Positions 1 through 29,808 of a stretch of 34,488 nucleotides of DNA are shown piece after piece. How positions within the stretch are numbered: position 1 is the stretch's first letter; the number at the start of each line of letters is the position of its first letter. The DNA lies in contig JAOZLM010000002.1 of NCBI GenBank assembly GCA_029934815.1, positions 1 to 34,488 of the forward strand. Direction: 5' to 3'. The position numbers and the translations under genes were made by a program. Below the pieces are notes generated by a model, which saw only the letters and a program-made list of their open reading frames with translations, made no database searches and had not been told where the DNA came from. This DNA comes from Desulfocapsa sp. (GTDB taxonomy: Bacteria > Desulfobacterota > Desulfobulbia > Desulfobulbales > Desulfocapsaceae).

Positions 1-100
1 GGGCGACCATTCGATCAATTTGAGGATCATGAGCCTGGTAAACCATTCCCATGGCACCACGGCCGAGTTCCGATACAATGTTATATCTTCCGTAATTCAT
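1..100 (-). CDS. Ser/Thr protein kinase, N-terminus only (truncated by window edge), PpkA/Hanks-type
   Basis: Reverse-strand translation from the ATG at 98-100 reads [33 protein letters not shown], a typical Hanks kinase glycine-rich loop ([10 protein letters not shown]). Start overlaps the stop of the protease gene (TAATG). Confidence 0.85.
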
Positions 101-1035
101 TAGTTGAGTTGCTCACTGAGAAAATCAATAATAACTTCCAGTGGAATCAGAAATCCGATTCCCTCTGATACGCGATGTCGTCCTTTGACTATGGCAACAA
201 ATTTTCCTTCGCTGTCAAAGACCGGACTGCCACTACTGCCCGGCTGGATTTCCATACTGGCCTGCCACATTGGCTGATTATTTACCAGGCGGGGAGGGCC
301 GTTGATGTATCCTGAATTAACCGTCCCTCGAAGCCCAACCGGACAGCCTATGGAATAGAGTTTTTCTCCCATGCTGAGCAGGTTGCGTCCTTCTTCAATA
401 TTGATGATCTGTTCTCTGCCGCTTTGAATCTGAATGAGCGCCAGGTCACGTTCAAAATCAATCTTTACAATATCACCTTTAAACAGGGTGTTGATGGTGG
501 AAACAATAGTGACTTCCTCCTGCTCTTTGAGGTCATGGGCTGTACACAGGATTAATCCCTGCTCATCAATGGTGACCCCGGAAAATTGTACAGTTTTTCC
601 CTGTCGGTTAGCTCTCAGGCAGGCAACAGTACCGATCTTATCAAGGACGGGCGTTGGTATTTCCGGCTGTTGGCTTGCTATCTGTTTGTTGCTTTTGTTT
701 CTGCTGTTAAGATATTGCTGGAGTTCTTGTATTCTTAACTCGTCATCTTCGTCGTTGGCAATTCGGATGGAAATTGTTGTGGCAAGAGGAGAGTGTGGGG
801 TGAGATTTATTTGCCACTGCTCATTGTTCTTTGAACTGGAGATATGAATGAGCCCACCTGATTGGGGTATAATCCGGTAGCTTTGATCGTTCATGTCGAG
901 CCAGTGGGAAACGGCTTGCTGACTCGCAGCCATGGAAAGCGGATAGTGCTGACTGCTTTCCATTGCATATACGTTATGGAAAGAGAAGAGCCAGGTGGCT
1001 GCCAGGAGGATATGCAGGCTACGGGGTTTCCTCAT
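100..1035 (-). CDS. Secreted trypsin-like serine protease, no PDZ domain visible
   Basis: N-terminal signal peptide ([24 protein letters not shown]). Catalytic-type motifs: TAHDL (His), [10 protein letters not shown] (Asp), [11 protein letters not shown] (Ser). ATGA overlap with the upstream PP2C gene. Confidence 0.8.
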
Positions 1036-1796
1036 ACCTGCACCTCTATGAGCACTGCGGTAATGTTGTCACGTCCGCCTCCGGACTTTGCCTGTTCTAT
1101 CAGTAGATTGCATCGATTCTCTAGCGGATCTCTGCTGGTTACTGTTTTTTCAATAGCCTCGTCACTCACCATATCGGTTAACCCATCAGAGCAGAGAAGA
1201 AACAGATCGCCGGCAAAATATCGTCCTCGAATAATATCAACTTCCAGCTGATCACTGACTCCCACTGCCCGGCTGATAACATTTCGTAGCCGGTGGGTAC
1301 GTGCTTCATCTTTGGAAATTATTCCCTGATCCAGCTGATCCTGTACCAGCGAATGATCCTTTGTTAAACGTACAAGCTGATTTTGTCGCAGACGATAGGT
1401 TCTGCTATCCCCGATGTGTCCCAGCACAAAACCCTGTTCATGAAAAAGAATAAGCTCGGCAGTGCATCCCATACCGCTGTGGCTGGGGAACTCGGCAATA
1501 TGTGCTCGTATTTTTGTGTTGGCAGTAAGGAATATTTCTTTGACCAGAGCGATGGCGTCTTTTTCGGAACGCTGTTCAGTTTTATGGATTGTCTGAGTCG
1601 CAGTTTCTGTGAAAATCCGGCTGGCAACTTCCCCGGCAGCTGCTCCACCCATACCATCGGCAACAAGACAGAAACCTGCTTCATTGTTCGTGGCAAAGCT
1701 GTCCTCGTTACCGGGACGGCGCAGGCCGGTATCGCTGATGCCGCAGACTTGTAGTATATGCTTTGTTTCCATGTCGCTGAAATCCCTGTTCTGCAA
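1032..1796 (-). CDS. PP2C-family Ser/Thr protein phosphatase (T6SS PppA/Stp-like)
   Basis: PP2C motifs: SDTGLRRPGNEDSF, LVADGMGGAAAGEVAS, GHIGDSRTYRL, LTKDHSL, LLCSDGLTDMV, GGRDNITAVL. Confidence 0.92.
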   Translation of the reverse strand: MQNRDFSDMETKHILQVCGISDTGLRRPGNEDSFATNNEAGFCLVADGMGGAAAGEVASRIFTETATQTIHKTEQRSEKDAIALVKEIFLTANTKIRAHIAEFPSHSGMGCTAELILFHEQGFVLGHIGDSRTYRLRQNQLVRLTKDHSLVQDQLDQGIISKDEARTHRLRNVISRAVGVSDQLEVDIIRGRYFAGDLFLLCSDGLTDMVSDEAIEKTVTSRDPLENRCNLLIEQAKSGGGRDNITAVLIEVQV

Positions 1797-1994: not shown

Positions 1995-3020
1995 GTGAAT
2001 ATGTCTGATCTGAAGGTACAATTGGTTCATCTCGACGGGCCATTTAAAGGGGAAATTCAGGACTTTTTTGAATCAGTTATTGCCATTGGAAGGCACCCTG
2101 ATTGCCAACTTGTTTTTCCTAAAGAATGTGGTGCAATCTCCCGTAAACACGCTGAAATCATACGTGAAGGGGATCGTTTTAGATTTGTTGATAAAAGTGC
2201 AAACGGCACCCTGATTAATGGCAAAGCTCAAAAAGATGTTTTTTTAAAAGATGGTGATGTCTTAATCATTGGAGGAGAAGGCGGGCCTAAGGTTAGTTTT
2301 TTGAGTTCACCTCTGGAACCTGGAGACAAGGAAGCTATGGCTGCTGTTGCTGTAGTGGAAAAAACAGTGCCGGTTCCGGAAGCACCTTCCGCAAAGGCAC
2401 TTCCTCTAAAAAAGGAATCGGCAAAAGAAATATCACCACCCAGATTTGTGCCAAAACCCTCGCCTGCCCCCCAACCGGAGTCACCCAAACCACAAGCTCC
2501 ATCACCAGAGCCCCTCCCTACAGTGGCTAAAACACTTATTATTCAGTATGGCGCAACGCTCACATCTTTTAAACAATTGCCAATTACCATAGGCAGTGGC
2601 GCTGATTGTGACTGTCCCTTGCAGCATCAGGAACTTGCTGCAGAGCATGCACAAATATTTTTTCGGGACGATCAATACTGGGTGAAAGACCTTACAGGAC
2701 GTGGCCTGGTGACCGTTAACCAGCAAGTCGTTCAGTCAGAGTCACCGTTACCTCCGGATAGTTGTCTGGCACTCACAGCCAAAGGGCCTGAGTTTCAGTT
2801 CCTTGGTGACGGCAGACTGGCGGAAATTGAACCAACAGAAGTGAAGCAGAAACAATCTTCAGTAAACAGGCAAAAGACGCAAGGCACAAGACGTTCTGAT
2901 GATAACAGCTCAAAAGGGAACGGTAACATGATCTGGCTTCTGATTGCTTTGCTGGGACTTGGTGGTGCTGTTGCCGCTTTGTATTATTTTCAGCCAACAC
3001 TTTTCACTGATTTACTTTGA
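1995..3020 (+). CDS. FHA-domain protein: intact N-terminal FHA, Pro-rich linker, second degenerate FHA-like domain, C-terminal TM anchor
   Basis: FHA1: IGRHPDCQLVF..AISRKHAEI..FRFVDKSANGTLINGK. FHA2-like: ITIGSGADCDCPL..LAAEHAQIFFRDDQYWVKDLTGRGLVTVN. TM: MIWLLIALLGLGGAVAALYYF near the C-terminus. The frame begins with GTG at 1995; ATG at 2001 is an alternative start. Confidence 0.85.
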   Translation: MNMSDLKVQLVHLDGPFKGEIQDFFESVIAIGRHPDCQLVFPKECGAISRKHAEIIREGDRFRFVDKSANGTLINGKAQKDVFLKDGDVLIIGGEGGPKVSFLSSPLEPGDKEAMAAVAVVEKTVPVPEAPSAKALPLKKESAKEISPPRFVPKPSPAPQPESPKPQAPSPEPLPTVAKTLIIQYGATLTSFKQLPITIGSGADCDCPLQHQELAAEHAQIFFRDDQYWVKDLTGRGLVTVNQQVVQSESPLPPDSCLALTAKGPEFQFLGDGRLAEIEPTEVKQKQSSVNRQKTQGTRRSDDNSSKGNGNMIWLLIALLGLGGAVAALYYFQPTLFTDLL

Positions 3021-3097: not shown

Positions 3098-4663
3098 ATG
3101 GAACAGATATCTATTCCGGATATTCCTTTTTCTATTCTCGCACTTGCACCTTTTACCTCAGAGCCTGATCCCGGTTCTGTAAATGACCCGCAGGCCGTTG
3201 ATCCCCTGGATATTGACCAGACTTTGGCTGCCATGGCTCCTTCTTTCTATCTTTCTCTGCCAGCCACTCAATGTCCTGCTGGTGGTTTTCAAATTCAGTT
3301 TCGGCAAATGAAGGATTTTACTCCCGATGGTTTGCTGAAGAGTCAGGCTTATTTAAAGCAACTGCTGGCTGCAGATCGTTTCTGTGTGGAGGCAGGGCAG
3401 CAGAAAATGTCTCCACAGGATGTGCAGCAAGGGTTGAAACAATGGCCTGATTTGCCTCATATCTCGCTGGATTTTGAGGAAAAAGTCAAAAAAGAAGAGA
3501 GTAATTCTCTCGATAATCTTCTGTCCATGGTAGATTTACCAGATAGCCAGTCGTCGATCCACACTGCTGTATCTGCCGGTACCGGGTCGTACGGTGCGCT
3601 GGCTTGCCAAATTCTCGACGCTATTTATAGTGATCCACTATTTCGCAGTCTTGAATCCAGCTGGCAGAGTTTGCGCTATCTTGGCCGCTATATGAGTAAA
3701 GCAGGAGCGAAGCTGACGATATTATCAGTGTCACCGGATAGTATTGAAACAGTTTTGGAAGAAAACCGGGAGCTGTTACTCACCCATCCCCCTTCTTTAC
3801 TTTTGCTCGATCAATCGTTTGGCAGCTCTGCACAATCTGTCCGGATACTAGAGCAACTTGCTCAGCTTGGACAGGAGATGCTTGTACCTGTGCTGGCCTG
3901 GGTGGATAATTCGTTTTTTCAAATAGAGAGCTGGCGTGAGTTGGATAAACTTTCGTTCCTGCCCCATTATATGGAAGGAGCTTCTTTTGCAAGTCTCAGG
4001 AGCTTTCAGGAATCTGCATCAGGGCGCTGGTTGGCTCTTGCCTGTAACCGTTTTCTAATACGTTTTCCGTATGGACCGGAAAACCGTTCACGCTTGCTAC
4101 CATTCAGTGAAAAGGGTGTGCCCTGGCAATCACCGGTATGGGGTGTCGCGGCTCTTATGGCAAGTCGTGCGCAACAAACTGGCTGGCCGACAAGGATTGC
4201 CTCATCAACTGAGCTTCTCGAAGATCTGGCTCTCACAACAGAAGGATTGAGTGAGACGGGAAGTGTAGAAATTGAATTAGGTGAGAGTCGGCTGGACCAG
4301 TTGACTCGTTGCGGTATAATGGCGCTGACAGGTCGAAAAAGAACAGATACTGCTTTGCTTGCAGGTGATGTTATGGTTTCAGCCGACGCCAGTTTAAGTT
4401 ACCAGATGCTGGTTTGCCGGGTCAGTCATTTTATTCTCTGGTGTCGGGATCACTGGCAGGAAGCTTTTACTGCAGAGGAATTGGCTGTGCAGCTCCGTAC
4501 CGCTTTTCGGCTTTTTGCGGAAAAGCAGAGCGGAACTTCAGCCGGAGACCTGGATGTAACGTGTAAGCATGATCAGGACGCAATCATGGTATCGTTTTGC
4601 TGGCAGCCTTCTTCACAAGTTCTTTCAAGCAGGCAGGAGGTTATGCTGGAATTTGCCTGGTAA
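3098..4663 (+). CDS. TssB-TssC-like single-chain fusion paralog (divergent T6SS sheath protein)
   Basis: N-terminal part aligns by eye with canonical TssB of this window (PFSILALAPFT ~ PLKMLIMGDFT; IQFRQMKDFTPDGLLKSQAYLKQLL ~ LAFESLKDFNPDAIAENSPELKKLM). The rest aligns with canonical TssC (SLESSWQSLRYL ~ KLESAWRSTKYL; RFLIRFPYG ~ RFLLRLPYG; PVWGVAALMASR ~ YLWGNAAFAFAT). Confidence 0.75.
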   Translation: MEQISIPDIPFSILALAPFTSEPDPGSVNDPQAVDPLDIDQTLAAMAPSFYLSLPATQCPAGGFQIQFRQMKDFTPDGLLKSQAYLKQLLAADRFCVEAGQQKMSPQDVQQGLKQWPDLPHISLDFEEKVKKEESNSLDNLLSMVDLPDSQSSIHTAVSAGTGSYGALACQILDAIYSDPLFRSLESSWQSLRYLGRYMSKAGAKLTILSVSPDSIETVLEENRELLLTHPPSLLLLDQSFGSSAQSVRILEQLAQLGQEMLVPVLAWVDNSFFQIESWRELDKLSFLPHYMEGASFASLRSFQESASGRWLALACNRFLIRFPYGPENRSRLLPFSEKGVPWQSPVWGVAALMASRAQQTGWPTRIASSTELLEDLALTTEGLSETGSVEIELGESRLDQLTRCGIMALTGRKRTDTALLAGDVMVSADASLSYQMLVCRVSHFILWCRDHWQEAFTAEELAVQLRTAFRLFAEKQSGTSAGDLDVTCKHDQDAIMVSFCWQPSSQVLSSRQEVMLEFAW

Positions 4664-5431
4664 TTATGCGGCGCTTTTTTGTAATTCCGCTTTCAGCAGA
4701 TCCGGCATATTCTCAACGGCGTCCTGAGCAACAATTTCCTGGAATGCCGGAATACCTGAGAGCTGTGTTACTTCAGTGATAAACTTATCTGGCGGCAGGA
4801 AGGTTGTAAGCGGCGCAGTAATCATGATTGCCGGCAAATTCCCCAGATCCGGTATCTCATAAATATCCACCTGATAACGAAGGTCTTCAAGCAGACTTTT
4901 TAGAGCCGGGAAATATTCCAGAAGTAATACCAGGCTGAGGTGGCAGATAAGCGCCTGGCGCATATCATCCGTCTGTTTAGCTTCCTTGCCGCTCAGCATA
5001 CCCTGTAAGCGCTCAAGGGGACATTCACTCTGGTAGGAAATAAGAAAACGGGTGGGAGAAGTGATAGTGATGCTTTTGCCATTATCACCATCAAGAGCCA
5101 GCTCATATTGCAGTGGAGTGTATTCCAGAACATTGGACATGGCCGGTAAGGGGGCCTGAAGTCTTTTGGGCAGTTGGAACGGTGATTCACAAATAGCGCT
5201 GAATCGTTCCTGCAACTCAGCAAATGCTTTGTCTGAACCGTTTATCTCTTGCTGCGAAGAACTTTTAATATACGTGCCAAGGAGTTTTCGGGGAATAAAG
5301 AGCGGCCGCAGGGTTGTGAGATGTTCCCGTAAGCGCTGCCCCAGAAATGAGCTGATCTTGTCTGTGGCCTGGCGGAGTTCCAGAAATTCCTGGCTGTCCA
5401 GGTCGGTACGGGGGATATTCAGTTCATTCAT
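4664..5431 (-). CDS. Hypothetical T6SS-linked protein, 255 aa
   Basis: Full-length ORF in the same strand block as the T6SS genes. No family recognised. Stop codon directly abuts the stop codon of the convergent TssBC-like gene. Confidence 0.7.
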   Translation of the reverse strand: MNELNIPRTDLDSQEFLELRQATDKISSFLGQRLREHLTTLRPLFIPRKLLGTYIKSSSQQEINGSDKAFAELQERFSAICESPFQLPKRLQAPLPAMSNVLEYTPLQYELALDGDNGKSITITSPTRFLISYQSECPLERLQGMLSGKEAKQTDDMRQALICHLSLVLLLEYFPALKSLLEDLRYQVDIYEIPDLGNLPAIMITAPLTTFLPPDKFITEVTQLSGIPAFQEIVAQDAVENMPDLLKAELQKSAA

Positions 5432-5464: not shown

Positions 5465-6244
5465 CTACCGTAATGATATGATAAATGCCTCAGTTTCCTC
5501 TTCAGAAGAGTAGGGGCAGAACATGATTTTTTCTGGTGTTCCTTCAACTTTCAGGTAGTAGGAGCTCCCTGGAGGAAGTTCATTTTGTACTGCCCAGGCA
5601 GTAAATTTGCTCTCACCCACTTCAATTTCCAAACCCTGCTGCGGATAGTTGAGGATAGATTTTTCCGGTAACTGCCCTGAAGGTCCCACTGCATGCAGTT
5701 TGATTTCTCCGTCACTAACCGCAAAGATTGCACCCTGCCAGTCACTGTTTGCAGGCCCTATCTCAAACCATTGGCCAACATTGGTAATCCCGTACACATC
5801 AATTCGATATTCAGTCTGGCTGGGTTGCACAGGTGTGTGGACAGTAGCAAGCAGTTTCGCTCCGTAAGCATCTCCGGCAATCGGCAGCACTTTCGCTTTA
5901 CTAAGCGGTGTGGGAAGAGAATCCGGCGCTATCTCTTCATCTCCAATCTGGAGAATAACAATGGGGAAGTTTGCACCACGCTCAGCCTGAACTGCAAGGG
6001 CGAGCATAGCAAGCCCATAACGGAAGGAGTCTTTTTTAAGACTTTCAGCAGAACAGAGAAGCAGCCACATGGAGACATTAGTATCCAGTAATTCCTTTCG
6101 CGGTGCTGCCCAAGCCATTTTTTCAAGATCGTCTGTGAAAAAATGACCATCAGCGGCAAGGCCGTAGGTTTGTAGTTTTGCGATAACAGATTGCACTGTT
6201 TCTTCGGGACAGTCGAACGCACTGATCCATATTTTTTTCTGCAT
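5465..6244 (-). CDS. Hypothetical T6SS-linked protein (about 259 aa from the internal ATG)
   Basis: The ORF track starts at 6295, but the MQKKIWISAFD start at 6244 is preceded by an AAGGA-like RBS (AAGGACACCATG) and avoids the overlap with the upstream gene. N-terminal alpha/beta-like half, C-terminal beta-rich half. Confidence 0.7.
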   Translation of the reverse strand: MQKKIWISAFDCPEETVQSVIAKLQTYGLAADGHFFTDDLEKMAWAAPRKELLDTNVSMWLLLCSAESLKKDSFRYGLAMLALAVQAERGANFPIVILQIGDEEIAPDSLPTPLSKAKVLPIAGDAYGAKLLATVHTPVQPSQTEYRIDVYGITNVGQWFEIGPANSDWQGAIFAVSDGEIKLHAVGPSGQLPEKSILNYPQQGLEIEVGESKFTAWAVQNELPPGSSYYLKVEGTPEKIMFCPYSSEEETEAFIISLR

Positions 6245-6251: not shown

Positions 6252-7721
6252 TTATCTTCCCGCCAGATGGAGCGGGTTGTCAAAATTAAAACCAAAGAGA
6301 CGGGGATTCTCCCCGATCACTGCTGCTGAAAAGATGTAAAAGACATAATCATAGGTTTGCTCTGGAATTTTGTCTCGATATTGTTTGAAAAATTTCCAAA
6401 AATTACGTTCCTGCGGATTGTTGGGCATGGCTCTCACCATACGGATAATCCGGTTTTCTCCCCAGTTATACGAAGCCATGACTAACAGACCGGAGGCCTG
6501 TGCATCGGTATCATAAATTTTACGAAGATATTTTGCCGCAGCCACCGTTGATTTTGCAAAGTTATGCCGCTCGTCTTGCGGATCAACTGTTCGTTCTTTA
6601 TACAGAGGGCCTGTTCGCAGTCCATAACGACTCCCGGTTTCAGGAATAAACTGCCACATACCTTTGGCTATTCCCCAGCGGGTTTTGGGGCCCATTGCAT
6701 TGACTTTGAAATTACTTTCCTGTAAAGCCAGATAAAAAAACTGGGGCGGCAAATAGTAGAAACGCATGGTATCTGCAATGGTAGGCGTATAGCCCATATC
6801 GTCGGCCCGTTTTACGGCATTTACAAGGCGTTTGGTGGATTGCCATTTTTTAATGTAACGAAGGACTTCTTTGGTGAAATCATCCGGGACAAGCAGCTCG
6901 CATTCGCCAAAAATCCTGGCAGTTTTGAGGATAGCCTGCTCTTCAGGACTGATACTACTGTATATCCCAAGGGTATCGACAAATTCACTGTAACTGTTCT
7001 CCAGCGCCCGAGCCTTTTGTTTATATTGTTCGACTCGGGCAATGGTGCTTGTGTCTTCACTTTCCCGTCCTTTCTTCAGCACATCAGCAAACTCAACTTC
7101 CAGACTTTTCATTGTATAGAAAATTTCTTCAGCGAGTTTTTTCTGCTTTACAATCTGCTGATGGTTATAAACAGCCACAGAACCAGCTACTAGAAAAAGA
7201 CAGACAACAAAACCAATTATAGCACCATAGGTTCTTTTTTGTTTTTTTTGTACCTGAGCAAAGGCACGTCGTACCATTATGGTGTGTTCACCTGCATTTT
7301 CATCGTTCTGATCACTGAAGTAATGTTGCTGGTAGTGAGCTTCTGTCTGTGGATCTTTTTTTGTTTCTGGAGCTTTCGCAACCGGCGGGTCAATAATTAG
7401 ATTGAGTTGTGGTCCGTTTCTTCCCAGTGTAACTTTGACTTGTTCTTTGATTTCATATCGACCAATAGCTTGTTCATTTACAAAAAGACCATTACCACTG
7501 TTGCAGTCCTGGATCCACCAGGTTCCCGCAAGCAGAACGACTTCAGCATGCTTGCGACTGACCACCGGATCAGCAATGTGGATGTCATTGGTGGGATCTC
7601 TGCCAATACGGAAGGAAGATGTGAACTTTTGCTCTGCAACCTGACCGGCTGTCCAGGTTGCAGAAACACGAATAGCAGGAGGAGAAGCATTCTGCTGATT
7701 GTTTTCCTGATCTGTATTCAT
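6252..7721 (-). CDS. FHA domain - transmembrane helix - MltD/SLT-type lytic transglycosylase fusion
   Basis: FHA: FRIGRDPTNDIHIADPVVSRKHAEVVLLAGTWWIQDCNSGNGLFVN. TM: AIIGFVVCLFLVAGSVAVY. SLT motifs: YLALQESNFKVNAMG, GIAKGMWQFIPETGSRYGLRTG, VASYNWGENRIIRMV (written MASYNWGENRIIRMV in the translation). Confidence 0.9.
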   Translation of the reverse strand: MNTDQENNQQNASPPAIRVSATWTAGQVAEQKFTSSFRIGRDPTNDIHIADPVVSRKHAEVVLLAGTWWIQDCNSGNGLFVNEQAIGRYEIKEQVKVTLGRNGPQLNLIIDPPVAKAPETKKDPQTEAHYQQHYFSDQNDENAGEHTIMVRRAFAQVQKKQKRTYGAIIGFVVCLFLVAGSVAVYNHQQIVKQKKLAEEIFYTMKSLEVEFADVLKKGRESEDTSTIARVEQYKQKARALENSYSEFVDTLGIYSSISPEEQAILKTARIFGECELLVPDDFTKEVLRYIKKWQSTKRLVNAVKRADDMGYTPTIADTMRFYYLPPQFFYLALQESNFKVNAMGPKTRWGIAKGMWQFIPETGSRYGLRTGPLYKERTVDPQDERHNFAKSTVAAAKYLRKIYDTDAQASGLLVMASYNWGENRIIRMVRAMPNNPQERNFWKFFKQYRDKIPEQTYDYVFYIFSAAVIGENPRLFGFNFDNPLHLAGR

Positions 7722-7728: not shown

Positions 7729-8136
7729 TTATGGTGCCAACAACAACACCTTGGTCTGGCTCGGGATTATCCTCATCCCGGGGACATTCGTACCGTTTTG
7801 CAAGCTCGGACTTGTAAGCCTTGTAGCAGGTTTTCCCTGGAAAAGAACAGTAAAAGCACCTGCCAGGTGCCGGGATGGTCCCATAACTCGTCCAGATGCG
7901 ACTCCCAGAGATATTCCAGCATTATCGCCATTGGTTAATGGCGTTACTGTCCCCATATTGTGAGCCGGCATTCCCATTATAAGGATTTTCATGCATGCCG
8001 TTCCCGGGTTTGCCGTGGGGCCCATTGCTATATTTGGGTATGGAATAGGGACCGGTGCGGGTGCTGGTGGCGCTGGAGTCAGGCAAACATCTGGAAAAGC
8101 AAGATCCTGACCCATCATTTGAGTATTTGCAAACAT
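7729..8136 (-). CDS. PAAR-like (DUF4150) spike-tip protein without toxin extension
   Basis: 135 aa. PAAR-like: FPDVCLTPAPPAPAPVPIPYPNIAMGPTANPGT..ILIMGMPAHNMGTVTPLTNGDNAG..GRVMGPSRHLAGAFTVLFQGKPATRLTSPSLQNGTN. Confidence 0.85.
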   Translation of the reverse strand: MFANTQMMGQDLAFPDVCLTPAPPAPAPVPIPYPNIAMGPTANPGTACMKILIMGMPAHNMGTVTPLTNGDNAGISLGVASGRVMGPSRHLAGAFTVLFQGKPATRLTSPSLQNGTNVPGMRIIPSQTKVLLLAP

Positions 8137-8148
8137 TTGATGCCTCCT

Positions 8149-8799
8149 TTATCCCATATGGATTCGTTCACCGTTAATCTTCACATCTTCTTCCGCTGTG
8201 AGCATGGAATATTTCCCACGAATTGTCAGAAGAGTGTCGGCGGAATAATCCAGTCGATTTGCCTTTAATTGATCGGTTCCTTCTACTTCCCGATAAGAAC
8301 GCTTAACCTTCTGTTTGAAACGATCAAAAAGAGATTCAAAAGTACCTCCCAGTACTTTTGTTTTTGCTATTTCACTCAGTAAATGAGTCGCAATAACTTT
8401 CAATCTGCTGATATTTATTTTTCCATGATCAGCAACAAACTGCATTTCTGAAGCTGTAAGATCGAGTTTTCGGGCAGTCATGATTCCTACGCCTGTTTTA
8501 GCGATGATTTGGATTTTACCATCTTTGCAGAGGAAATCTGTATCACCTTCAAATATCACTTTGTTTTTCTTTCCATTTTTTTCAAGAACGGCAAGAATGT
8601 AGCATTCTCCTTCCGGATCAGTAATGAGAAGTACTTTATCCGTTATATCCGGGTATTGGAGACAGCTTGCCGCTTTTTTTGCAGTGTATCGTGTCTCTTG
8701 GGTCCTGACGATAAATTGCCCCTGATTAACATGTTCAATATATCCAAATTCTTGAAAAACAGGGTGTCCCTGGTCTTTATTAGCTAGTGCATTTAACAT
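8149..8799 (-). CDS. DUF3540-like T6SS accessory protein
   Basis: 216 aa protein between pentapeptide and DUF4150 genes, with the VLLITDPEGECYILAVLEK ... LDLTASEMQFVAD... pattern and beta-rich repeat-like C-terminus. Context (DUF2169/PPR/DUF3540/DUF4150) supports the call. Confidence 0.7.
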   Translation of the reverse strand: MLNALANKDQGHPVFQEFGYIEHVNQGQFIVRTQETRYTAKKAASCLQYPDITDKVLLITDPEGECYILAVLEKNGKKNKVIFEGDTDFLCKDGKIQIIAKTGVGIMTARKLDLTASEMQFVADHGKINISRLKVIATHLLSEIAKTKVLGGTFESLFDRFKQKVKRSYREVEGTDQLKANRLDYSADTLLTIRGKYSMLTAEEDVKINGERIHMG

Positions 8800-8868
8800 G
8801 TTACAACCCTCTGTTAAAAGAATTCTTATTCATGCGTAAATCCTTTTCGGACAGCATGGTAATCGTTG

Positions 8869-9924
8869 TTAAAGTATTGGCTGCCACTGTTCAGCAGCTG
8901 CCTGTTCCGGATCTGTATCAAGCGCTTTTTCTTTATTGGATCCTGTCCAAATAGTATGCTCAGTTTTACACTGATGTAATTTTGTCCTGGTCAAGTTGGC
9001 ATAACTCATATCCGCAGTGGAAATATCTGAATGAGAAAAATCGCAATAAGTGAGATTAGCATGGGAAAAACGGGCACTGGAGCAGTCTGCTTTACACATA
9101 ATCGAGGATTCAAGGTTTGCTTTTGTAAAATCACATCCATTCAGCGTAGCACCATCAAAACAACTCTGGGTAAGAATCGCAGATCCCAAACTTGCATTAC
9201 TCAAGTTAGCTTCCATAAAAATAGATAATGGGCCAACTATCTTTTCAAGATTGGCACCGGAAAGATTTGATCCCATAAAGTTGGTTTGGCTGAGATCGGT
9301 TCCCTGTAAATTGGCCAGAGTAAGATTAGAATCTTTTAACATGGCCATGGAGAGCTGTACGTCACGTAAATCTTTGCCAGACAGATCTGTTTCCTGCAGA
9401 AAAGCTAATCTGAAAATACTTCCTGATAGAGCAGCATTTTTAAGACTGGTTTGAAAAAACATTGCTTGTTCGGCATCAATTCGTATTAGTTTTAAATTAT
9501 TACTTTTACAGCCCTGAAAGAAAGCCTGTTTCAAAATACATTCTGTAAAGTCAGCTTCAGAAAGATCGCAATTCATAAGTATCATATCAGAACAATCTGA
9601 ATTGCTAAAGACAGTACTTTTGCAATCGACATCAACAAGTTTACATTGAATAAGCTTCGCCTGGTTTAGATTGGCTCCTGCCATACGGCTCTCATTGATT
9701 ACAGTCAGGTGAAGATTTGCATTACTGAGATCAGCATTGCTGAAATCGACGTCATAGAAAATAGATTCATTCAGAAGTGTGCCACTCAAATTACAGTTTT
9801 TAAAACACACGTCTTCAAAAATTCCACCAGCGAGTTTCGCACCGGATAGATCCTGTCCAGAGAAGTCCTCCTTTTCGATTAACTCACCGGCATTAATGTT
9901 TTCAATAAGTTCAGCACGTGTCAT
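8869..9924 (-). CDS. Pentapeptide-repeat protein
   Basis: Continuous A(D/N)LXX-type repeats (LSGAKLAGG, ANLNQAKL, ADLSNANL, ANLSNASL...). The MTRAEL start at 9924 has GGAG at good spacing and an ATGA overlap with the upstream stop; the ORF track extends to 9936. Confidence 0.9.
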   Translation of the reverse strand: MTRAELIENINAGELIEKEDFSGQDLSGAKLAGGIFEDVCFKNCNLSGTLLNESIFYDVDFSNADLSNANLHLTVINESRMAGANLNQAKLIQCKLVDVDCKSTVFSNSDCSDMILMNCDLSEADFTECILKQAFFQGCKSNNLKLIRIDAEQAMFFQTSLKNAALSGSIFRLAFLQETDLSGKDLRDVQLSMAMLKDSNLTLANLQGTDLSQTNFMGSNLSGANLEKIVGPLSIFMEANLSNASLGSAILTQSCFDGATLNGCDFTKANLESSIMCKADCSSARFSHANLTYCDFSHSDISTADMSYANLTRTKLHQCKTEHTIWTGSNKEKALDTDPEQAAAEQWQPIL

Positions 9925-12509
9925 GAAGAACTCCATTTACTGAGGATGGTCTTCTCAACATTGGCTTGATCCAGCAGGACGGTAGAAAAATCAACCTGCA
10001 TTAGATCAGCACAAAACAAATTTGCTCCGCGTAGATCACAATCCTGCATGATGGCTTTTTGTAAAGAACCTTCCATGAGGTTAATTGAAACCAGTCTGGC
10101 CTGACTAAGGTCTGCCTGCATAAACATGGTCTGTTTTGCAACAGCCTGATAAAAGGTAGATTGGTTGAGCTTACTTTTACTCAGATCCGCTGCCGATAGA
10201 TCAGCTTTGGTAAAGTTGGAATGTTTGAGGCTTGTTTCTCTGAGATTTGCATTTTTAAGGTTCGCCTGAGTAAAATCAGAATTTTCCATTGAGGTTTTCA
10301 TGGCTGTTCTCAGGTTCTCCATATTGGCATTCTTGAAATCTGAGCCATTGGCATTAACCTGTACAAGGACTGCTTCCATGAGCTTGGCGTTGGAGAAGTT
10401 GGCTTTTTGTACGCTGGTATTATAAAAAAATGCCTCGTTCAGGCTACTGTCTGAAAAATCAGCGCCATTAAGTTTGCTCTCAAAAAACATTGCATTGTCA
10501 AGAGTAGCAGAGGAAAAGTGTGTATCCTCAGCAATGCATTCTGTGAAATCAACTGCTTCCATTTGTGCATGTACAAAGGATGCTTCTGTTAAATCCGCCT
10601 GATAAAATACAGCTTTTTTAAGCTGGCAGTCGGAAAAGTCGGCTTTGTTAAGATTTGCTTTTCCAAGATTTGTTTCTGTTAAATTGGCATTGTTTAAGCG
10701 CGCATCTGAAAGATTAGCTCTTGCCAGCATAGTTTTTGAAAGATTTGCATTTGTTAAAATGGTTCCCTGAAGCTTAGCGCCATCAAGAAAACTTTCACTC
10801 AAATCAATTCCAGTAAGATCAAGGCCAGAAAGGTCAACTCCGGGAAGTTCTCGTTTTGTCAGGCTTTTCCCTTCTTTGACTGCTTGAATAACTTTTTTCC
10901 GCATCTCATCCATCGATTCCTGGGAAGGGGCGGGAACAGGATCAAAAAAATGTCCATATTGGATGCTTAACGAATCAAACTCTTTTTCAATTTTATGTAA
11001 TCTGGCTTCTTTTTTAGGATCATCGATGCCGCTATCTCTCATCAGGGAAATCATTTCTTCGGCAGAAAAACTGACTCGTTCACCTTTTTTCGTCTCAGCA
11101 TCTGCAAGGAACTCGTCATAATCATTTCCCATTGAGGAGAACACGTTTCTCAAAGAGTCTTCCAACTCTTTTTCCTGTTTTTTTGCTTCAAGTTCTATTT
11201 TTTCTACCAGGTCGTCTAGCTGATCCAGATTATCCATGTCGATGTCTACAGAAAAATCTTCATTTTTCTTTTTGTAATCATCCGGGTTCAGACCATAATC
11301 TTTAATACTTTCCCAGGCTGCCTCAATTTCACTATCGGACTTTTTCTGAATGTTTTTTTCTAAAATACCATCACCGGAAGCTGATTCACCTTCTTTCAAA
11401 AGTTGGGACATGGCTGATTGAGCCCCATCAGGGATGAGATCTTTCTCGTTCAAGCTCTGAAGGTATCCTTTTTTCTTGTCCAGCCGTGAAGAAAGTGCTT
11501 CCTTGTAATGTGATAGAGGTCTGCTGTCATCGGTCAGCTTTTCATAGGCCACGACTATCTGAGAAAATTCTGAGGCCTGATCATCGGAGACTTCGATTTG
11601 TCCACGGAACAGGACCACTCCACATTCTTTGTGCGGAAAGAGCCAGACCGTATCTGCCTGCATTTTGATTTCATGGAGATCGATTTCTTTATTCTCTCCA
11701 TTATTAATAAAACAGCGTGTTCGTATTCCCGGCAGTCTGGAATTGATGGAACTTTTCTCAGGGTGCATGTTTTTGCAACTGAATGATTCCAGACATGTAA
11801 ATTTTTCTCTTTGCTGTTGATCCAGTGGGGCTGTATTTAAAAAGGCAGGATCAAAATCTTCTGCAAATCCAGGAAAACGTTCATTGAGCCACTTTTCATC
11901 ATAGGTACCGATTTTAGAAAAGCGTTGGGGCCAGGTTTGGTCGTATGGGCCAAAACCAGCAGGGAGCATTTTTTGATCCGGTATGGAAATGGGTTGATCG
12001 GGCAGAGTAATATTAGGAACCGCAATGACGTTTGATTTATACTGCGCAAGATCCTTTACATACCCTTTTCCCAGCGGATTTTCCGGGTAATCAGGTCCGC
12101 CAAAAGAATATTGATAGTTCAGGGATAACTGTGGCAACATCTCAGGATCACTCAGTTTCCATTGTCCCCCTATGCCTTTTATCCAGTGTCGGTCTCCAAA
12201 AACATTAAGTTCCTTTCGCTGATTACCAATCTGTACCTCTACACTTCCCGCATGTGCGGGTTGGTCATTGGGCGGGAAAAAATTTCCGCATACCAGAAAT
12301 TCAGAACCCATTTTGGGCATACCGGTATCGAGCACACCTTCAGTACCAAGCTCTTCAGCCACCATAGGCCACATCTTCAATTCCATTTTCAGTTTCTCTG
12401 GATCATCAAAGGAAAAGAAGGCGATAATTGTACTGACCAGATAATAGCGCTGATTGAGTTCGTAAGTTCTGTACAGGAGGCCAAGATCCAGTGGCTTGAT
12501 AACTTTCAT
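9921..12509 (-). CDS. DUF2169 - charged linker - pentapeptide-repeat fusion protein
   Basis: N-terminus MKVIKPLDLGLLYRTYELNQRYYLVSTIIAFFSFDDP..VFGDRHWIKG..YQYSFGGPDYPENPLGKG is DUF2169-like. The C-terminal third is pentapeptide repeats (VDLSGLDLTGIDLSESFLDGAKL...). Confidence 0.88.
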   Translation of the reverse strand: MKVIKPLDLGLLYRTYELNQRYYLVSTIIAFFSFDDPEKLKMELKMWPMVAEELGTEGVLDTGMPKMGSEFLVCGNFFPPNDQPAHAGSVEVQIGNQRKELNVFGDRHWIKGIGGQWKLSDPEMLPQLSLNYQYSFGGPDYPENPLGKGYVKDLAQYKSNVIAVPNITLPDQPISIPDQKMLPAGFGPYDQTWPQRFSKIGTYDEKWLNERFPGFAEDFDPAFLNTAPLDQQQREKFTCLESFSCKNMHPEKSSINSRLPGIRTRCFINNGENKEIDLHEIKMQADTVWLFPHKECGVVLFRGQIEVSDDQASEFSQIVVAYEKLTDDSRPLSHYKEALSSRLDKKKGYLQSLNEKDLIPDGAQSAMSQLLKEGESASGDGILEKNIQKKSDSEIEAAWESIKDYGLNPDDYKKKNEDFSVDIDMDNLDQLDDLVEKIELEAKKQEKELEDSLRNVFSSMGNDYDEFLADAETKKGERVSFSAEEMISLMRDSGIDDPKKEARLHKIEKEFDSLSIQYGHFFDPVPAPSQESMDEMRKKVIQAVKEGKSLTKRELPGVDLSGLDLTGIDLSESFLDGAKLQGTILTNANLSKTMLARANLSDARLNNANLTETNLGKANLNKADFSDCQLKKAVFYQADLTEASFVHAQMEAVDFTECIAEDTHFSSATLDNAMFFESKLNGADFSDSSLNEAFFYNTSVQKANFSNAKLMEAVLVQVNANGSDFKNANMENLRTAMKTSMENSDFTQANLKNANLRETSLKHSNFTKADLSAADLSKSKLNQSTFYQAVAKQTMFMQADLSQARLVSINLMEGSLQKAIMQDCDLRGANLFCADLMQVDFSTVLLDQANVEKTILSKWSSS

Positions 12510-12554
12510 ATCATATTATTTAGCGGTAACAGCATTGTCGCTTACGTTTATTCA

Positions 12555-14765
12555 TTAGATAAAAAGGTGAACCAGTGATTTCTTGACGGCTGGCCCTGAA
12601 GACTCTTGTATATCAGATAAACCGGTTTTTATACATGCAGATTCTTTTACAAGTTTAAGTCCGGCACTGTAACCAATATCTATGGAGAAGCTTGCAAAGT
12701 ATTTAAGACCTGCAGAAATCTCAATGCCTGCCGATGCACTTGCTTCATAGTTTAAGCCGGCATGAGCTGTCATGGAAGTACTTAAGTATCGTGCCATGGT
12801 ATGTCCAACATAAGAGGCTATGCAAACTCCGTCACTATGCCCTGTATGATTGCCCGAGACACTTATAGTTCTGTTTCCAATGACATTATATGTTTCACCG
12901 CCGGTCACATTATGTGTTCTTCCACCAGCGGTGACAATATATTGGTCGCCTCCGGAAATGATCTGTGTTTTTCGGGAGTTTGTTATGTAGTTTTGCTGGC
13001 CATTAGCAACGTACCTGTTTTCCTGGTCTCCGACTCGTACTTCCCGATATTGCATTGCATTTGTTCTTTCCTCACCTATGACATCTAACTTTCTGTTTCC
13101 TGTCACGTATTTCCATTCTTTCCCTTTTATTTTTATCGTTTTATCTTCGCCCACGTCTTCAAATGAACCTTTTTTGCAGACGGTAACTTGTGTACCGTCT
13201 GTAGCTAAATAAACATTACCGGCATTCACGTCACCTAAGGAAATAATAGAATTCTCTGTGGGAGAGGACATGTGGATCTGCTGCCCACCTGCACTATCTT
13301 CTATACGAATCTGATTACCACCGGCAGTACGAATCATTGATTGAGTCTGATTGCCGCCGGTAACTGGGCTGCCGGTTTCGGGATTTGGAACGGTTCCTGA
13401 AATAATAGGGCGATCGGGGTCACCATCGATAAAGGTGAGCAGCACTTCAGTTCCTTTGTGCAGAGGAAAATGCATACCGTAATCAGCACCTGCGTATGGC
13501 TGGGACATTCGCATCCAGCGAGAGGCCTTGCCGTCTGCAGAATCACTTTGATCAAATGGTAGTTTTACTTTATAGCGTCCTTCGTCATCAATTTCTGCAT
13601 ACTCACCGTCCCCACTCGCATCGACTGTGCCGTTAAGTGTTCCTTTGAGTTTAGGCTTTTCCGCTAAACGTTCAGGCCTGAATTGGGTATCAGCCGGTAT
13701 GCAACTGAAATTGTTAAAGTATGATGGCCCCTGACTGTCGTCGGTACTCTCGCCGCCAGCTCCGGTAAGATATGTGGATTGCACCCCTTTATGGGATAGC
13801 TCAATGATTAAATAGCGCTGATTATAGGAGTCCCGATAATGATCGTGTAACTCAAAAACATAGCCAGTCAAAAATGGTGGTACGGTTCCTTCTCCGTAGA
13901 AGAGTGCTTCCCGGCAGAGCAGTTCTTCCGCTCGTATTGTAGCCAAGGCATTTCCCTGTTCCGGGGTTTTGAAATGTTCCCCGTAGATATACACGTTACC
14001 CCGGCCTTCGGGATCTACATCTGCCTCTCCCTTCAGAGATAGGGAAGGTTTTCGGTAGTTATAATCTTTTAAAACAATTTTCTTCGGTAAGAGCTGCTGG
14101 TGGCAGGTGAATTCCCTGACCTGCTCTGTGGTTGATGGTGCGAGAGAGTCTGGCGGGGAATAACGAATAGATTCGCCCGAGGTGATATCCTGGTGGGCTG
14201 TGGAGGCATCGGCAATAACCAGTTTTTCTGCTTCACTACCTTGTTCGAAATAGTAGTAGATTCCCTCCCGTTCCATCCAGCGGGAAATAAAGTTAAAATC
14301 AGATTCATTGTACTGGCAGATATATTCCCAGGGATCGTAACTGCCGGTGAGTTTCATCTCGTAATCATTGGTGGTAAGACCGGTTTGTTTAAGGACTTCT
14401 TCGATAATATCCGGGATGCTTTTATCAAGGAATAACTGATTTTCCAGATATTGATCTGCGATCCACAGGCGGGGAACCAGTATGGCACGAAAGTATACGT
14501 GTCCAGAATACTCGTGCAATTGTTCAAAGCGGGAGAGGATGCCATGAAAAACTCGCAGTTGTTCCCCCTCTTTTTCAACGGTTAATTTTACCGGGTTTTT
14601 TAAAACTTCTTTGAGATCGATATCCGGATCATCAGCATAGAGTGTTATCTCGAATTCATAGAGTTTAGAAATAGCTTCTTTACCTGTGAACTCGGCAACC
14701 GTAAAGGTATCATCTGGTTGCGCTGTTGAAGTAAAACTGAATTTAATACTTTCTTCAGTAGGCAT
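12555..14765 (-). CDS. vgrG: VgrG spike protein (TssI)
   Basis: VgrG hallmarks: VFHGILSRFEQL, YICQYNESDFNFISRWMEREGIYYYFEQ, VKLPFDQSDSADGKASRWMRMSQPYAGADYGMHFPLHKGTEVLLTFIDGDPDRPIISGTVPNPE. Start overlaps the clpV stop (TAATG). Confidence 0.97.
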   Translation of the reverse strand: MPTEESIKFSFTSTAQPDDTFTVAEFTGKEAISKLYEFEITLYADDPDIDLKEVLKNPVKLTVEKEGEQLRVFHGILSRFEQLHEYSGHVYFRAILVPRLWIADQYLENQLFLDKSIPDIIEEVLKQTGLTTNDYEMKLTGSYDPWEYICQYNESDFNFISRWMEREGIYYYFEQGSEAEKLVIADASTAHQDITSGESIRYSPPDSLAPSTTEQVREFTCHQQLLPKKIVLKDYNYRKPSLSLKGEADVDPEGRGNVYIYGEHFKTPEQGNALATIRAEELLCREALFYGEGTVPPFLTGYVFELHDHYRDSYNQRYLIIELSHKGVQSTYLTGAGGESTDDSQGPSYFNNFSCIPADTQFRPERLAEKPKLKGTLNGTVDASGDGEYAEIDDEGRYKVKLPFDQSDSADGKASRWMRMSQPYAGADYGMHFPLHKGTEVLLTFIDGDPDRPIISGTVPNPETGSPVTGGNQTQSMIRTAGGNQIRIEDSAGGQQIHMSSPTENSIISLGDVNAGNVYLATDGTQVTVCKKGSFEDVGEDKTIKIKGKEWKYVTGNRKLDVIGEERTNAMQYREVRVGDQENRYVANGQQNYITNSRKTQIISGGDQYIVTAGGRTHNVTGGETYNVIGNRTISVSGNHTGHSDGVCIASYVGHTMARYLSTSMTAHAGLNYEASASAGIEISAGLKYFASFSIDIGYSAGLKLVKESACIKTGLSDIQESSGPAVKKSLVHLFI

Positions 14766-17413
14766 TAGTCATTTCCTCCGAATTTTATGGCGAAGTTCCC
14801 CTCCTGATCCATATCAAGGTGAACACTTTCAGGCATTTTTTCTTCACTCATGCAGGTCAGGATTTCTTTGGACATTTGCGGTAGTACAGTACCATTCATA
14901 ATATGATCGATATTTCTGGCACCGGTTTCAACTTCTGTACATCTGGCTGCAATTTGTGTAATGACTTCATCACTGTAGGTGAGTTTCATTTTATGTGTCT
15001 GCTGCATTCGTTTTACCAGCTTATCCATCTTTAATATGACAATATCACTTAAGATATCCTGTGGAAGCGTCATATATGGGACAACGGTCATCCGGGCAAG
15101 AAGTGCGGGTTTGAAGTGGTTGTTCAAAATAGGACGTACGGCCTCCATGATTACTTCCGGAGGCAGTGGTTCATCACCGGTTGTCATTTCAGTTATCACA
15201 TCGGTGGCAAGGTTGGAAGTAAGGAAAATGATGGTATTTTTAAAATCAATTTCCCGGCCTTCGCCGTCCGACAGAGAGCCTTTGTCGAATACCTGGTAGA
15301 AGAGATTCAGCACTTCGAGATTGGCTTTTTCTACTTCATCAAGCAGGACTATGGAGTAGGGGCGTTGACGTACCGCTTCGGTAAGTACACCGCCTTCTCC
15401 ATAGCCAACGTATCCCGGAGGTGACCCAACCAGACGACTCAAGGTGTGACGTTCCTGGAATTCACTCATATTAATGGAAGTGACAAATCGTTCGCCACCA
15501 AGAATTAAATCAGCAAGGGCAAGGGCAGTTTCTGTTTTACCAACACCACTTGGGCCAACGAGCAGGAAGATGCCAAGTGGTTGTGCAGGATCTTTCAGGC
15601 CTGATTTAGCAGCTTTTATAACTTCTGCAATGGCAGAAAGACCATTGTCCTGACCTTTAATCCGCTTTTGCATCGATTCTTCAAGGTTAACAATATTTGA
15701 AGCCTGATCCCGCATAACACTGCCAAGAGGTACGCCTGTCCAGTCAGAAACTACTTTGGAGACGATATCCGGGTCAACTTCTATGCGTACAAGGGCTTCA
15801 TCTTTTTGCAATTCCTCAAATTCGCCTTTCAGCTGGCTGAGTTCTTTTTCCATTTCTGGAATCTTCTCTTTTGCCTCACTGTCTTCCTCATCCGCTTCTT
15901 TGGCTGCAAAGAGTTCTTTTCTTACTTTGATAAGTTTGTTGGCCAGTTCCTGCTCACTTTTCCACTGCGTTATCAGGGCTTCCAGTTGTTCTGCGAGATC
16001 CGTGAGTTCCTGCTCAATTTCAGTTAAACGTTCTTCATCAACCTCAAAACCATGGAGCTTGTCTCGTCCCATGGCTCGTTTTTCCCGCTCAAGTGCCTGA
16101 ACTGTTCGTTCCCGGTCTTCGATAACATCCGGTTTTGCAGTGAGAAGTACCTTGACTCTGGCGGTGCTGGTATCGAGCAGATCAACAGCTTTATCGGGCA
16201 ATTGTCTTCCCGAGATGTAACGGCTTGAAAGCTCTGCCGCTGCGACAACTGCGTCATCCCGAACAATCACACCATGGGCTTCTTCATATTTTTGTTTCAG
16301 CCCGCGCAGGATGAGAATGGCAGTTTCGGTGGAGGGCTCATCAAGTTTGACCAGTTGAAATCTTCTGGCAAGTGCAGGATCTTTTTCGAAATATTTTTTG
16401 TATTCAGACCAGGTGGTGGCGGCAACAGTTCGTAGTTCGCCTCTTGCAAGGGCAGGTTTCAGGAGGTTTGCGGCATCACTCTGTCCTGCTGCTCCCCCTG
16501 CGCCAATGAGGGTATGGGCTTCATCAATAAAGAGAATAATTGGTTTAGGTGATGCTTTTATTTCGTTAATAACTGATTTTAGGCGGTTTTCGAATTCACC
16601 TTTTACCCCTGCTCCTGCCTGCAACAGTCCCATATCCAGACCGAGAATTGAAACATTCTGCAATAGTTCCGGTACATCTCCTTCTGTAATCCGTAAGGCC
16701 AGTCCTTCCACCACGGCGGTTTTACCAACTCCGGCTTCACCAACAACAATGGGATTGTTTTTTCGTCTTCTTGCCAGAATATCAACCATCTGCCGGATTT
16801 CAAGATCCCTGCCAAAGACCGGGTCAATTTCTCCTTCAGCTGCTTTTTCGGTGAAATCAACACAGAATTTTCCAAGAGCAGTTGAGTCTCTGGGGCCTGC
16901 AATTTCTTGATCATCATCAGCTTCACCGGGAGCAGGTTGCTCGGAAGAGGATTGAACGATTCCCCAGAATTCACTCTTCAGTCCATCAAAAGGGATTACG
17001 TCCAGCTGCTCAAGAAATTGTCCTGCTCCAAAGCGGGATGGATTATTAATCAGTGCTAGCAGGAGTGCTCCTGAGCGGAGTTTGGTTTCATCAAGATCAA
17101 CAGATGCAAGTAGCCAGGCTTCCTGGAACCATTCCATTAATAGTGGTGAAAAAACAGGCTTAGCAGCATTGCCCGTGCTGAATTCCTCAAGGGCGGCATC
17201 TATTCCTTTGCTGAATTTTCCGGGATCTAAATCATAATGACGTAAAATGACGGGCAGATCCGAACGATCTTCTTCAAGAAGTTTAGCAAGGAAATGTTCT
17301 AAGGTAACTTCATAATGGGTGCGTGAAACACAGAGGCCGGCTGCAGCTTCAAGGCAGCGGGTACAGAAAGGATTTAAGCGTCCTAAAAGCGATTTGATGT
17401 CAACAGTTAGCAT
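14765..17413 (-). CDS. clpV: T6SS AAA+ ATPase ClpV (TssH)
   Basis: Two Walker A motifs (VVGEAGVGKTAVVEGLA; LVGPSGVGKTETALALA), Walker B IILFIDEAHTLIG and IVLLDEVEKA, ClpB-like middle domain, N-terminal Clp-N. Confidence 0.97.
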   Translation of the reverse strand: MLTVDIKSLLGRLNPFCTRCLEAAAGLCVSRTHYEVTLEHFLAKLLEEDRSDLPVILRHYDLDPGKFSKGIDAALEEFSTGNAAKPVFSPLLMEWFQEAWLLASVDLDETKLRSGALLLALINNPSRFGAGQFLEQLDVIPFDGLKSEFWGIVQSSSEQPAPGEADDDQEIAGPRDSTALGKFCVDFTEKAAEGEIDPVFGRDLEIRQMVDILARRRKNNPIVVGEAGVGKTAVVEGLALRITEGDVPELLQNVSILGLDMGLLQAGAGVKGEFENRLKSVINEIKASPKPIILFIDEAHTLIGAGGAAGQSDAANLLKPALARGELRTVAATTWSEYKKYFEKDPALARRFQLVKLDEPSTETAILILRGLKQKYEEAHGVIVRDDAVVAAAELSSRYISGRQLPDKAVDLLDTSTARVKVLLTAKPDVIEDRERTVQALEREKRAMGRDKLHGFEVDEERLTEIEQELTDLAEQLEALITQWKSEQELANKLIKVRKELFAAKEADEEDSEAKEKIPEMEKELSQLKGEFEELQKDEALVRIEVDPDIVSKVVSDWTGVPLGSVMRDQASNIVNLEESMQKRIKGQDNGLSAIAEVIKAAKSGLKDPAQPLGIFLLVGPSGVGKTETALALADLILGGERFVTSINMSEFQERHTLSRLVGSPPGYVGYGEGGVLTEAVRQRPYSIVLLDEVEKANLEVLNLFYQVFDKGSLSDGEGREIDFKNTIIFLTSNLATDVITEMTTGDEPLPPEVIMEAVRPILNNHFKPALLARMTVVPYMTLPQDILSDIVILKMDKLVKRMQQTHKMKLTYSDEVITQIAARCTEVETGARNIDHIMNGTVLPQMSKEILTCMSEEKMPESVHLDMDQEGNFAIKFGGND

Positions 17414-17501
17414 GGTACTCTCCCATTATTGTTAAGTAAATATCGTTTTGTGGCTAAATTGTTGCCTGCTATTTGGCAGGCCGCTAAACACTCTGCAATT
17501 G

Positions 17502-20254: not shown

Positions 20255-20278
20255 TGATTATCTTTTGGTTATTTTTTG

Positions 20279-20428
20279 TTACTATTCAGCGTACCCTTCG
20301 TAACTTGGGTAAACTTGAAACCGTAACTGTTCAGAAGTGCTCAGGTTCGTTCAGGCTGGTCGTCGTAGTGTACGATTTTGTACATGAGGCGACCAGATCG
20401 GACGAAAATGGGTGCTTCTGAATAGTTA
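20279..20428. repeat. Long imperfect inverted repeat / hairpin element between tssE and tssF
   Basis: Arms TAACTGTTCAGAAGTGC (20324-20340) and GTGCTTCTGAATAGTTA (20412-20428), with inner arms CTGGTCG..../..GCGACCAG around TGTACGATTTTGTACA. A further ACTATTCAG copy lies at about 20281. Confidence 0.75.
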
Positions 20429-20842
20429 TTATTTTTTTATGCTTATCTTGCCGTCAGAATCCAAAAGGCTTTCAAACAGGACTGAGGTATTTGAATCTGA
20501 GGCAGCAAGTTTCGCAAAAATCTGAAATTTTACTGCCAGGCGATCTTCTTCCTGAGGAGTAAATGCCACCCTTACAGCACGCAGCCTTGGTTCAAACTGC
20601 GTGATTGTCTGTTTGATCGCTCTTTCAAAACCACGCAGTGACTGTGGATAGTCAGTGAGAAACTCTGTGAAGTCAGGAGTACCATACTCTTCTGCGATAA
20701 GAACATTTCCCTGTCGGGTATTGAGGATCTGTTTCAAGTGATCCTGAATGGAGTCAATCACCCTTGACTGATCCTCGCTTTCCCGGCGGAGTGGATCCTG
20801 CTCTTTTAGTCGAATACGCTCTAATAACCTGGCTTCCCGCAT
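20429..20842 (-). CDS. tssE: T6SS baseplate protein TssE (gp25-like)
   Basis: gp25 family pattern: LLERIRLKEQD..IQDHLKQILNTRQGNVLIAEEYGTPDFTEFL..IKQTITQFEPRLRAVRVAF. Confidence 0.95.
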   Translation of the reverse strand: MREARLLERIRLKEQDPLRRESEDQSRVIDSIQDHLKQILNTRQGNVLIAEEYGTPDFTEFLTDYPQSLRGFERAIKQTITQFEPRLRAVRVAFTPQEEDRLAVKFQIFAKLAASDSNTSVLFESLLDSDGKISIKK

Positions 20843-20895
20843 AAATCAGTTACTCCGTTTCAACTTGTGAGAAATGCGGGGCAGGTGGCAACGCA

Positions 20896-21384: not shown

Positions 21385-21444
21385 TTGAGTTTGTCTCCTT
21401 ATGTTATGATGATGTTTCGAACGTCTTCATCTACTTCACAAAAA

Positions 21445-22932: not shown

Positions 22933-22941
22933 GGTTCTCTC

Positions 22942-29806: not shown

Positions 29807-29808
29807 TG

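Follow-up and report, generated by a model that had tools for sequence, protein, structure and literature searches.

An FHA-lytic transglycosylase fusion of Desulfobacterota and Rhodothermota as a candidate phosphothreonine-linked wall-opening enzyme of the T6SS

How bacteria open their cell wall for T6SS assembly at the right place and time, without lysing themselves, is still poorly understood. TagX and MltE have been described as cases, but we found no description in the literature of a cytoplasmic signal controlling either of them. The window analysed here, a stretch of 34,488 nucleotides from Desulfocapsa sp. (contig JAOZLM010000002.1), encodes at 6252..7721 a 489-aa protein that joins an FHA domain, a transmembrane (TM) helix and an SLT domain. 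Could a threonine-phosphorylation pathway control a wall-cutting enzyme through such a protein? T6SS peptidoglycan hydrolases are known, as is T6SS threonine phosphorylation with FHA proteins (PMC3953482, PMC12607579). What appears to be new is the joining of both in one protein: the open-access literature searched held no description of an FHA-transglycosylase fusion, nor of a T6SS link between FHA and transglycosylase. With the phosphothreonine pathway and the wall-cutting enzyme on one polypeptide, control of wall opening becomes directly testable, and carriers with complete genomes include Desulfopila sp. IMCC35008 and Roseithermus sacchariphilus.

A sequence-only reading had proposed an FHA-TM-transglycosylase fusion at these coordinates. 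The coordinates are correct, the strand, which it left unstated, is minus (as for all features of the protein below), and every motif it quoted is present in the open reading frame. The architecture is borne out by domain searches, with both Pfam domains far above cut-off, by full-length homologs and by an AF2 model of the 489-aa protein (mean pLDDT 83). The FHA domain (residues 38-100; 7422..7610; PF00498, E=2.9e-17) carries the phosphothreonine-binding residues typical of the family (GR, S-x-x-H in the form SRKH, and NG), and G40-R41, S55-R56, H58 and N77-G78 are conserved in a 16-member alignment of the fusion family (A1). The SLT domain (GH23, MltD-like; residues 320-434; 6420..6764; PF01464, E=1.1e-14) has GH23-type motifs at the sequence level: E335-S336, W356-Q357-F358 and Y418-N419 are invariant in A1, the codon of the catalytic-type Glu335 (QES) lying at 6717..6719. 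When the whole model was searched against PDB folds with Foldseek, the best 50 rows were FHA domains (e.g. Rv1747, 6ccd), and the SLT part was therefore assessed by profile searches instead. The A1 profile matches 8rhe, a LysM transglycosylase structure, at E=8.5e-17, and the alignment pairs up the ES, WQFIP and YN motifs; it also matches FHA structures, e.g. Rv1747 and GarA.

Residues 166-184 (7170..7226; hydropathy 2.58) are the sole hydrophobic segment, with a net charge of +6 before and +1 after, and a single TM helix with a positive-inside bias is common to almost all homologs. Because of this charge pattern and the one TM helix, the FHA domain is predicted to be cytoplasmic and the SLT domain periplasmic, in agreement with the topology first claimed. 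In the AF2 model an FHA-type beta region and a helical C-terminal domain are connected through a long helix, residues 145-210, that spans the cytoplasmic side, the membrane segment and the start of a predicted periplasmic helical stalk (residues 187-251; 6969..7163; helices 145-210, 212-220 and 224-251). The FHA domain stands where a signal sequence would be. The protein has no export signal, and a Pfam scan of it found no LysM domain and no PAAR or Rhs delivery domain.

The gene had been placed inside a T6SS locus, and this holds: the T6SS in the window is complete (TssA, B, C, E, F, G, J, K, L, M, Hcp, VgrG, ClpV and PAAR). The core genes clpV, tssG, F, E, hcp, tssC, B, A, M, L, K and J occupy 14765..31735 (minus strand). 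Between them and the fusion lies a cassette (7729..14765, minus) encoding VgrG, a TvpAB-like protein (DUF2169 plus pentapeptide), a TvpB-like pentapeptide protein, a TvpC-like protein (DUF3540) and PAAR, which matches the class III Tvp spike-assembly set (PMC13373197), not an effector-immunity pair. Directly downstream of the fusion is the conserved partner gene X276 (5465..6244, minus), followed by a second conserved T6SS-linked partner, Y255 (4664..5431, minus; no Pfam or NCBIfam match). In the AF2 model of X276 (pLDDT 85), a C-terminal beta domain follows an N-terminal alpha/beta domain that resembles, weakly, both TIR-APAZ and receiver domains (best E about 5e-5, TM about 0.4). Beyond these genes a divergent pair on the plus strand encodes a second FHA protein (1995..3020; two FHA stretches by Pfam and a C-terminal hydrophobic segment) and a TssB/TssC-like sheath paralog (3098..4663; VipA-like then VipB-like regions). 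Then come a PP2C phosphatase (1032..1796, minus; PF13672 and NF033484 above cut-off), a trypsin-like protein (100-1035, minus; in the same place in the close relative G009 and in Desulfopila) and a Ser/Thr kinase gene of which the contig, before it ends, includes 33 codons from the start (2..100, minus), 29 of the 33 being identical to a complete Pkinase+PEGA protein of G009. Of the linked kinase/PP2C pair in the sequence-only reading, the phosphatase is thus present, and the kinase is represented by this fragment at the contig edge. The kinase is complete in G009 and Desulfopila, and the locus has the gene content of a T6SS threonine phosphorylation module, namely kinase, PP2C and FHA protein together with the T6SS.

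Does the fusion accompany the T6SS elsewhere? We found it in 30 genomes of Desulfobacterota and Rhodothermota, several of the genomes being MAGs. Since full-length homologs occur in two phyla, the fusion is not a chance product; since carriers were found via homology to the window protein, there may be further ones in other phyla. The search of 193 relatives gave full-length homologs in G009 (76% identity), G054 and G070 besides the window genome, and a copy cut by the contig end in G073. G054 and G070 are family-level relatives, and their loci match those of a Desulfocapsaceae MAG and of Desulfopila sp. IMCC35008, so that the window genome probably belongs to the Desulfocapsaceae. In G350 a match (E=5e-42) was dropped as an ordinary LysM-type transglycosylase. 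Scanning contigs of GTDB genomes yielded 14 loci in Desulfobacterota and in Rhodothermota/Bacteroidetes-type genomes. Two unselected genome samples were each searched for the fusion and for TssF. In the phylum sample TssF is found in 45 of 395 genomes and in 6/6 carriers (p=1.6e-6), and in the Rhodothermia-class sample in 13 of 146 genomes and in 11/11 catalytic carriers (p=7e-15; both hypergeometric tests, treating genomes as independent). In a set of 17 carriers 16 have TssF; in the seventeenth (G070), the fusion lies on a cut contig next to VgrG, Tvp-like genes and PAAR. Overall, TssF is present in 29 of the 30 catalytic carriers, and the remaining one shows VgrG/PAAR on a contig that is cut. 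All 30 are T6SS-positive, so that a distribution mainly among T6SS-less genomes, which the sequence-only reading had named as evidence against its proposal, is not what we find.

Most loci with readable flanks have the fusion inside the T6SS cluster, and it takes the same place in G009, G054, G070 and G073. Its neighbours in G009 and Desulfopila are the kinase, PP2C and T6SS genes. In several Rhodothermota loci PP2C and kinase directly follow it, and the sheath paralog directly precedes it (e.g. L107, 4521-6401). At two loci (L044, L045) the fusion lies away from the T6SS cluster, in TssF-positive genomes. In G036 the related locus has a HEAT-repeat gene at the fusion position, while both partner genes are retained along with the second FHA protein, PP2C and the kinase; the fusion was not found in G036, which makes it non-essential for this type of T6SS. 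G156 has X276, and the fusion was not found there. The genome of G006 gave no fusion copy either, but its T6SS contig ends before that position. The view of the protein as a dedicated T6SS enzyme is well supported: carriers are T6SS-positive, the gene mostly lies in the locus, and homologs with a dead active site occur only without TssF.

Directly ahead of the TM helix the alignment reveals a conserved cytoplasmic juxtamembrane segment (residues 131-160; 7242..7331), which in the window protein reads AGEHTIMVRRAF and follows the family pattern GEHTxMxRxAF. Its conservation despite a variable linker is newly seen here: the stretch between FHA and TM is tens of residues long in the window protein and >550 in L107. 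Pairwise identity is 0.57 over residues 143-154, 0.16 over linker residues 111-128 and 0.59 over the SLT region; the juxtamembrane segment is conserved to the same degree as the enzyme domain. Thr147 (codon 7281..7283) is invariant in A1 and kept in 28 of the 29 catalytic members with a readable segment, six of these sequences having been read only after the pattern had been spotted. In the context G-E-H-T147-I-M-V, this conserved threonine is flanked by an acidic Glu at -2 and by V, which is hydrophobic, at +3, and it shares a polypeptide with the FHA domain. By sequence, it has the features of a self-ligand and is a candidate phospho-switch.

Four homologs are exceptions. Only L112, L113 and L114, from genomes without a TssF match, lack the catalytic Glu; there the Thr segment is gone as well, while the FHA residues, TM helix and C-terminal region are kept. 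L110 retains the catalytic motifs, but its Thr segment and its FHA pocket (G-S, R-D, N-Q) are lost; neither a kinase nor a PP2C gene was found beside it, the genome's strong kinase matches being on another contig. Because of these losses, the Thr segment seems to go with FHA binding and catalysis taken together, a suggestive pattern that comprises one group of three and one singleton, perhaps no more than two independent events. The conservation of Thr147 could instead reflect a role in capping a helix or in dimer packing.

What else might the FHA domain bind? The far end of the T6SS operon encodes a Cys-rich protein of 442 aa (32478..33806, minus strand; no Pfam or NCBIfam match) whose tail carries ETIII, DTVLL and ETIIL, i.e. 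three (D/E)T(I/V)(I/L)(I/L) motifs. The pattern was spotted first in the window, where its significance is post hoc, and then tested on six orthologs from other genomes; each of the seven proteins has 2-6 motifs, whereas all other ORFs, in 274,788 aa, have at most one. A Poisson estimate made here counts related proteins as if they were independent. Judging from these tails, the 442-aa protein is a likely candidate for a multi-phosphothreonine scaffold of T6SS FHA proteins. In Rhodothermota loci no 442-type ortholog was detected. The kinase of the close relative carries FSETIIQ just ahead of its hydrophobic segment. Overlapping the 442-aa gene by 4 bases, and directly before tssJ, is a gene for a 249-aa protein with a TagH C-terminal domain and no FHA domain (31732..32481, minus; PF20232 T6SS_FHA_C, 24.3 bits, cut-off 23.7). 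TagH functions appear to be divided among several proteins in these loci.

The fusion resembles several known systems and coincides with none. TagX, the T6SS peptidoglycan hydrolase of Acinetobacter, is an L,D-endopeptidase whose full-length form appears autoinhibited (PMC5061870). Like the predicted fusion protein, it is anchored in the inner membrane, encoded with the T6SS and has a periplasmic C-terminal catalytic domain; however, TagX is a VanY-type peptidase with two TM helices and no FHA, whereas the fusion, of the GH23 transglycosylase type, has an FHA domain, one TM helix and, by Pfam, SLT and no peptidase domain. MltE, in EAEC, is a lytic transglycosylase that serves T6SS assembly, being recruited to the membrane complex and stimulated by TssM (review PMC10433429), but it is a housekeeping enzyme acted upon from the periplasm, while the fusion is T6SS-specific and has its own cytoplasmic FHA domain. 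Like TagH/Fha1 (TIGR03354), it has an FHA domain and is encoded alongside kinase and PP2C in a T6SS locus. It scores 41.5 bits against that model's cut-off of 120.25 and lacks PF20232, the TagH C-terminal domain being on the separate 249-aa protein. Compared with MltD-type LysM transglycosylases (8rhe and relatives), it has the GH23-type catalytic motifs and, in place of LysM and an export signal, an FHA domain and a TM anchor; the match to MltD proper (PRK10783) is 51.7 bits versus a cut-off of 508. A parallel to a cis-acting Thr147 is Bdellovibrio DgcB (FHA-GGDEF), in which the FHA domain captures the phosphorylated tail of the same protein, where Glu occupies -2 and a hydrophobic residue +3, and the linked enzyme is switched on (PMC6733907). 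DgcB, GarA and OdhI all have an FHA domain in cis with a threonine of this kind. Their ligands are N-terminal tails of soluble proteins, whereas the candidate threonine of the fusion lies between FHA and TM, with the enzyme across the membrane.

On balance, we lean towards reading the fusion, from its sequence, as an inner-membrane transglycosylase that is dedicated to the T6SS and is recruited or activated under the control of threonine phosphorylation. The MltD-like domain would make openings in the peptidoglycan for the membrane complex or the tail to pass, by a catalysis that we infer from its motifs, and the cytoplasmic FHA domain would couple its activity or placement to the T6SS threonine-phosphorylation module of linked kinase and PP2C. 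The kinase would phosphorylate cytoplasmic sites, presumably Thr147 and/or the repeated motifs in the 442-aa tail. The FHA domain would bind such a phosphothreonine in cis, in trans or on a scaffold, so that the enzyme clusters at the assembly site and/or the TM/stalk helix is reorganised and the SLT domain works; PP2C would reset the system. Gating by threonine phosphorylation, as the sequence-only reading had proposed, gains indirect support from the kinase/PP2C linkage, the intact FHA pocket, the invariant juxtamembrane Thr and the correlated losses. Recurrence in two distant phyla, almost only with the T6SS, suggests that a kinase signal decides where or when the wall opens. Control is presumed to run from the cytoplasm outward, and would then be an uncommon case of a kinase controlling an enzyme across a membrane. 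A more specific version, which we put forward tentatively and hold to be possible though doubtful, is an inside-out switch: phosphorylated Thr147, captured by FHA in cis or in trans, would rearrange the continuous TM/stalk helix pair and turn on the periplasmic transglycosylase only where the T6SS is built, with the role of TagH divided between FHA domains on the enzyme and on the second membrane protein and a TagH C-terminal domain standing alone next to the multi-phosphothreonine scaffold.

Would recruitment alone suffice? The FHA domain might dock a constitutively active enzyme on a phosphorylated scaffold, either the 442-aa tail or the kinase, Thr147 being the structural start of a helix. 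The 2-6 motifs of the seven 442-type orthologs do resemble the proven ligand of the A. tumefaciens T6SS FHA protein, which binds phosphothreonine of TssL (peptide DLPpTVVEI; PMC3953482); the relative's kinase has FSETIIQ just ahead of a hydrophobic segment, the long AF2 helix begins at residue 145, and recruitment of MltE in EAEC is a precedent. However, the Thr segment is kept in Rhodothermota, in loci without a detected 442-type ortholog, and it disappears with catalysis or with the FHA pocket, neither of which a pure helix cap need track. We consider recruitment alone rather unlikely. It is improbable, too, that the SLT domain serves mainly as a peptidoglycan-binding anchor or sensor, passing cell-wall information inward to the kinase module and not cutting the wall. 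Peptidoglycan anchoring is a recognised T6SS accessory role (TagL; see PMC8253398), and since the three Glu-less homologs keep the C-terminal region, TM helix and FHA domain, a scaffold alone can be useful. But these homologs are confined to TssF-negative genomes, and all T6SS-positive members examined by sequence keep Glu, WQFIP and YN.

Two further readings were considered. Peptidoglycan-cutting T6SS effectors are known, and the position directly downstream of VgrG, the Tvp-like genes and PAAR would suit an injected antibacterial toxin. We rejected this as very improbable: an N-terminal FHA domain and a TM anchor stand in place of a PAAR or Rhs delivery domain, the adjoining cassette matches the Tvp set, and both downstream proteins are retained in G036, and X276 in G156 as well, although neither genome showed a fusion. 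These two proteins have no obvious signal sequence and are in this respect unlike periplasmic immunity proteins. The idea of a housekeeping MltD-type enzyme that lies in a T6SS locus by accident we find the hardest of all to credit, and it too was rejected. The SLT domain is MltD-like, as the far-below-cut-off PRK10783 match and 8rhe indicate, but the measured T6SS association is strict, LysM is missing, FHA replaces the signal sequence, and four other SLT genes lie elsewhere in the window's genome.

Two kinds of variant stand out in the family. L107 (6420-9701), L108 (6575-9766) and L109 (8960-12082) encode versions of 1040-1093 aa with a very long cytoplasmic linker, which in L107 carries repeated SGFF-x-x-L-type motifs, possibly binding sites. 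L112 (3586-5064), L113 (13571-14908) and L114 (1-1319) are FHA-TM proteins with a degenerate SLT region; these Glu-less homologs still adjoin PP2C and kinase (L112, L113) or sit near a kinase (L114).
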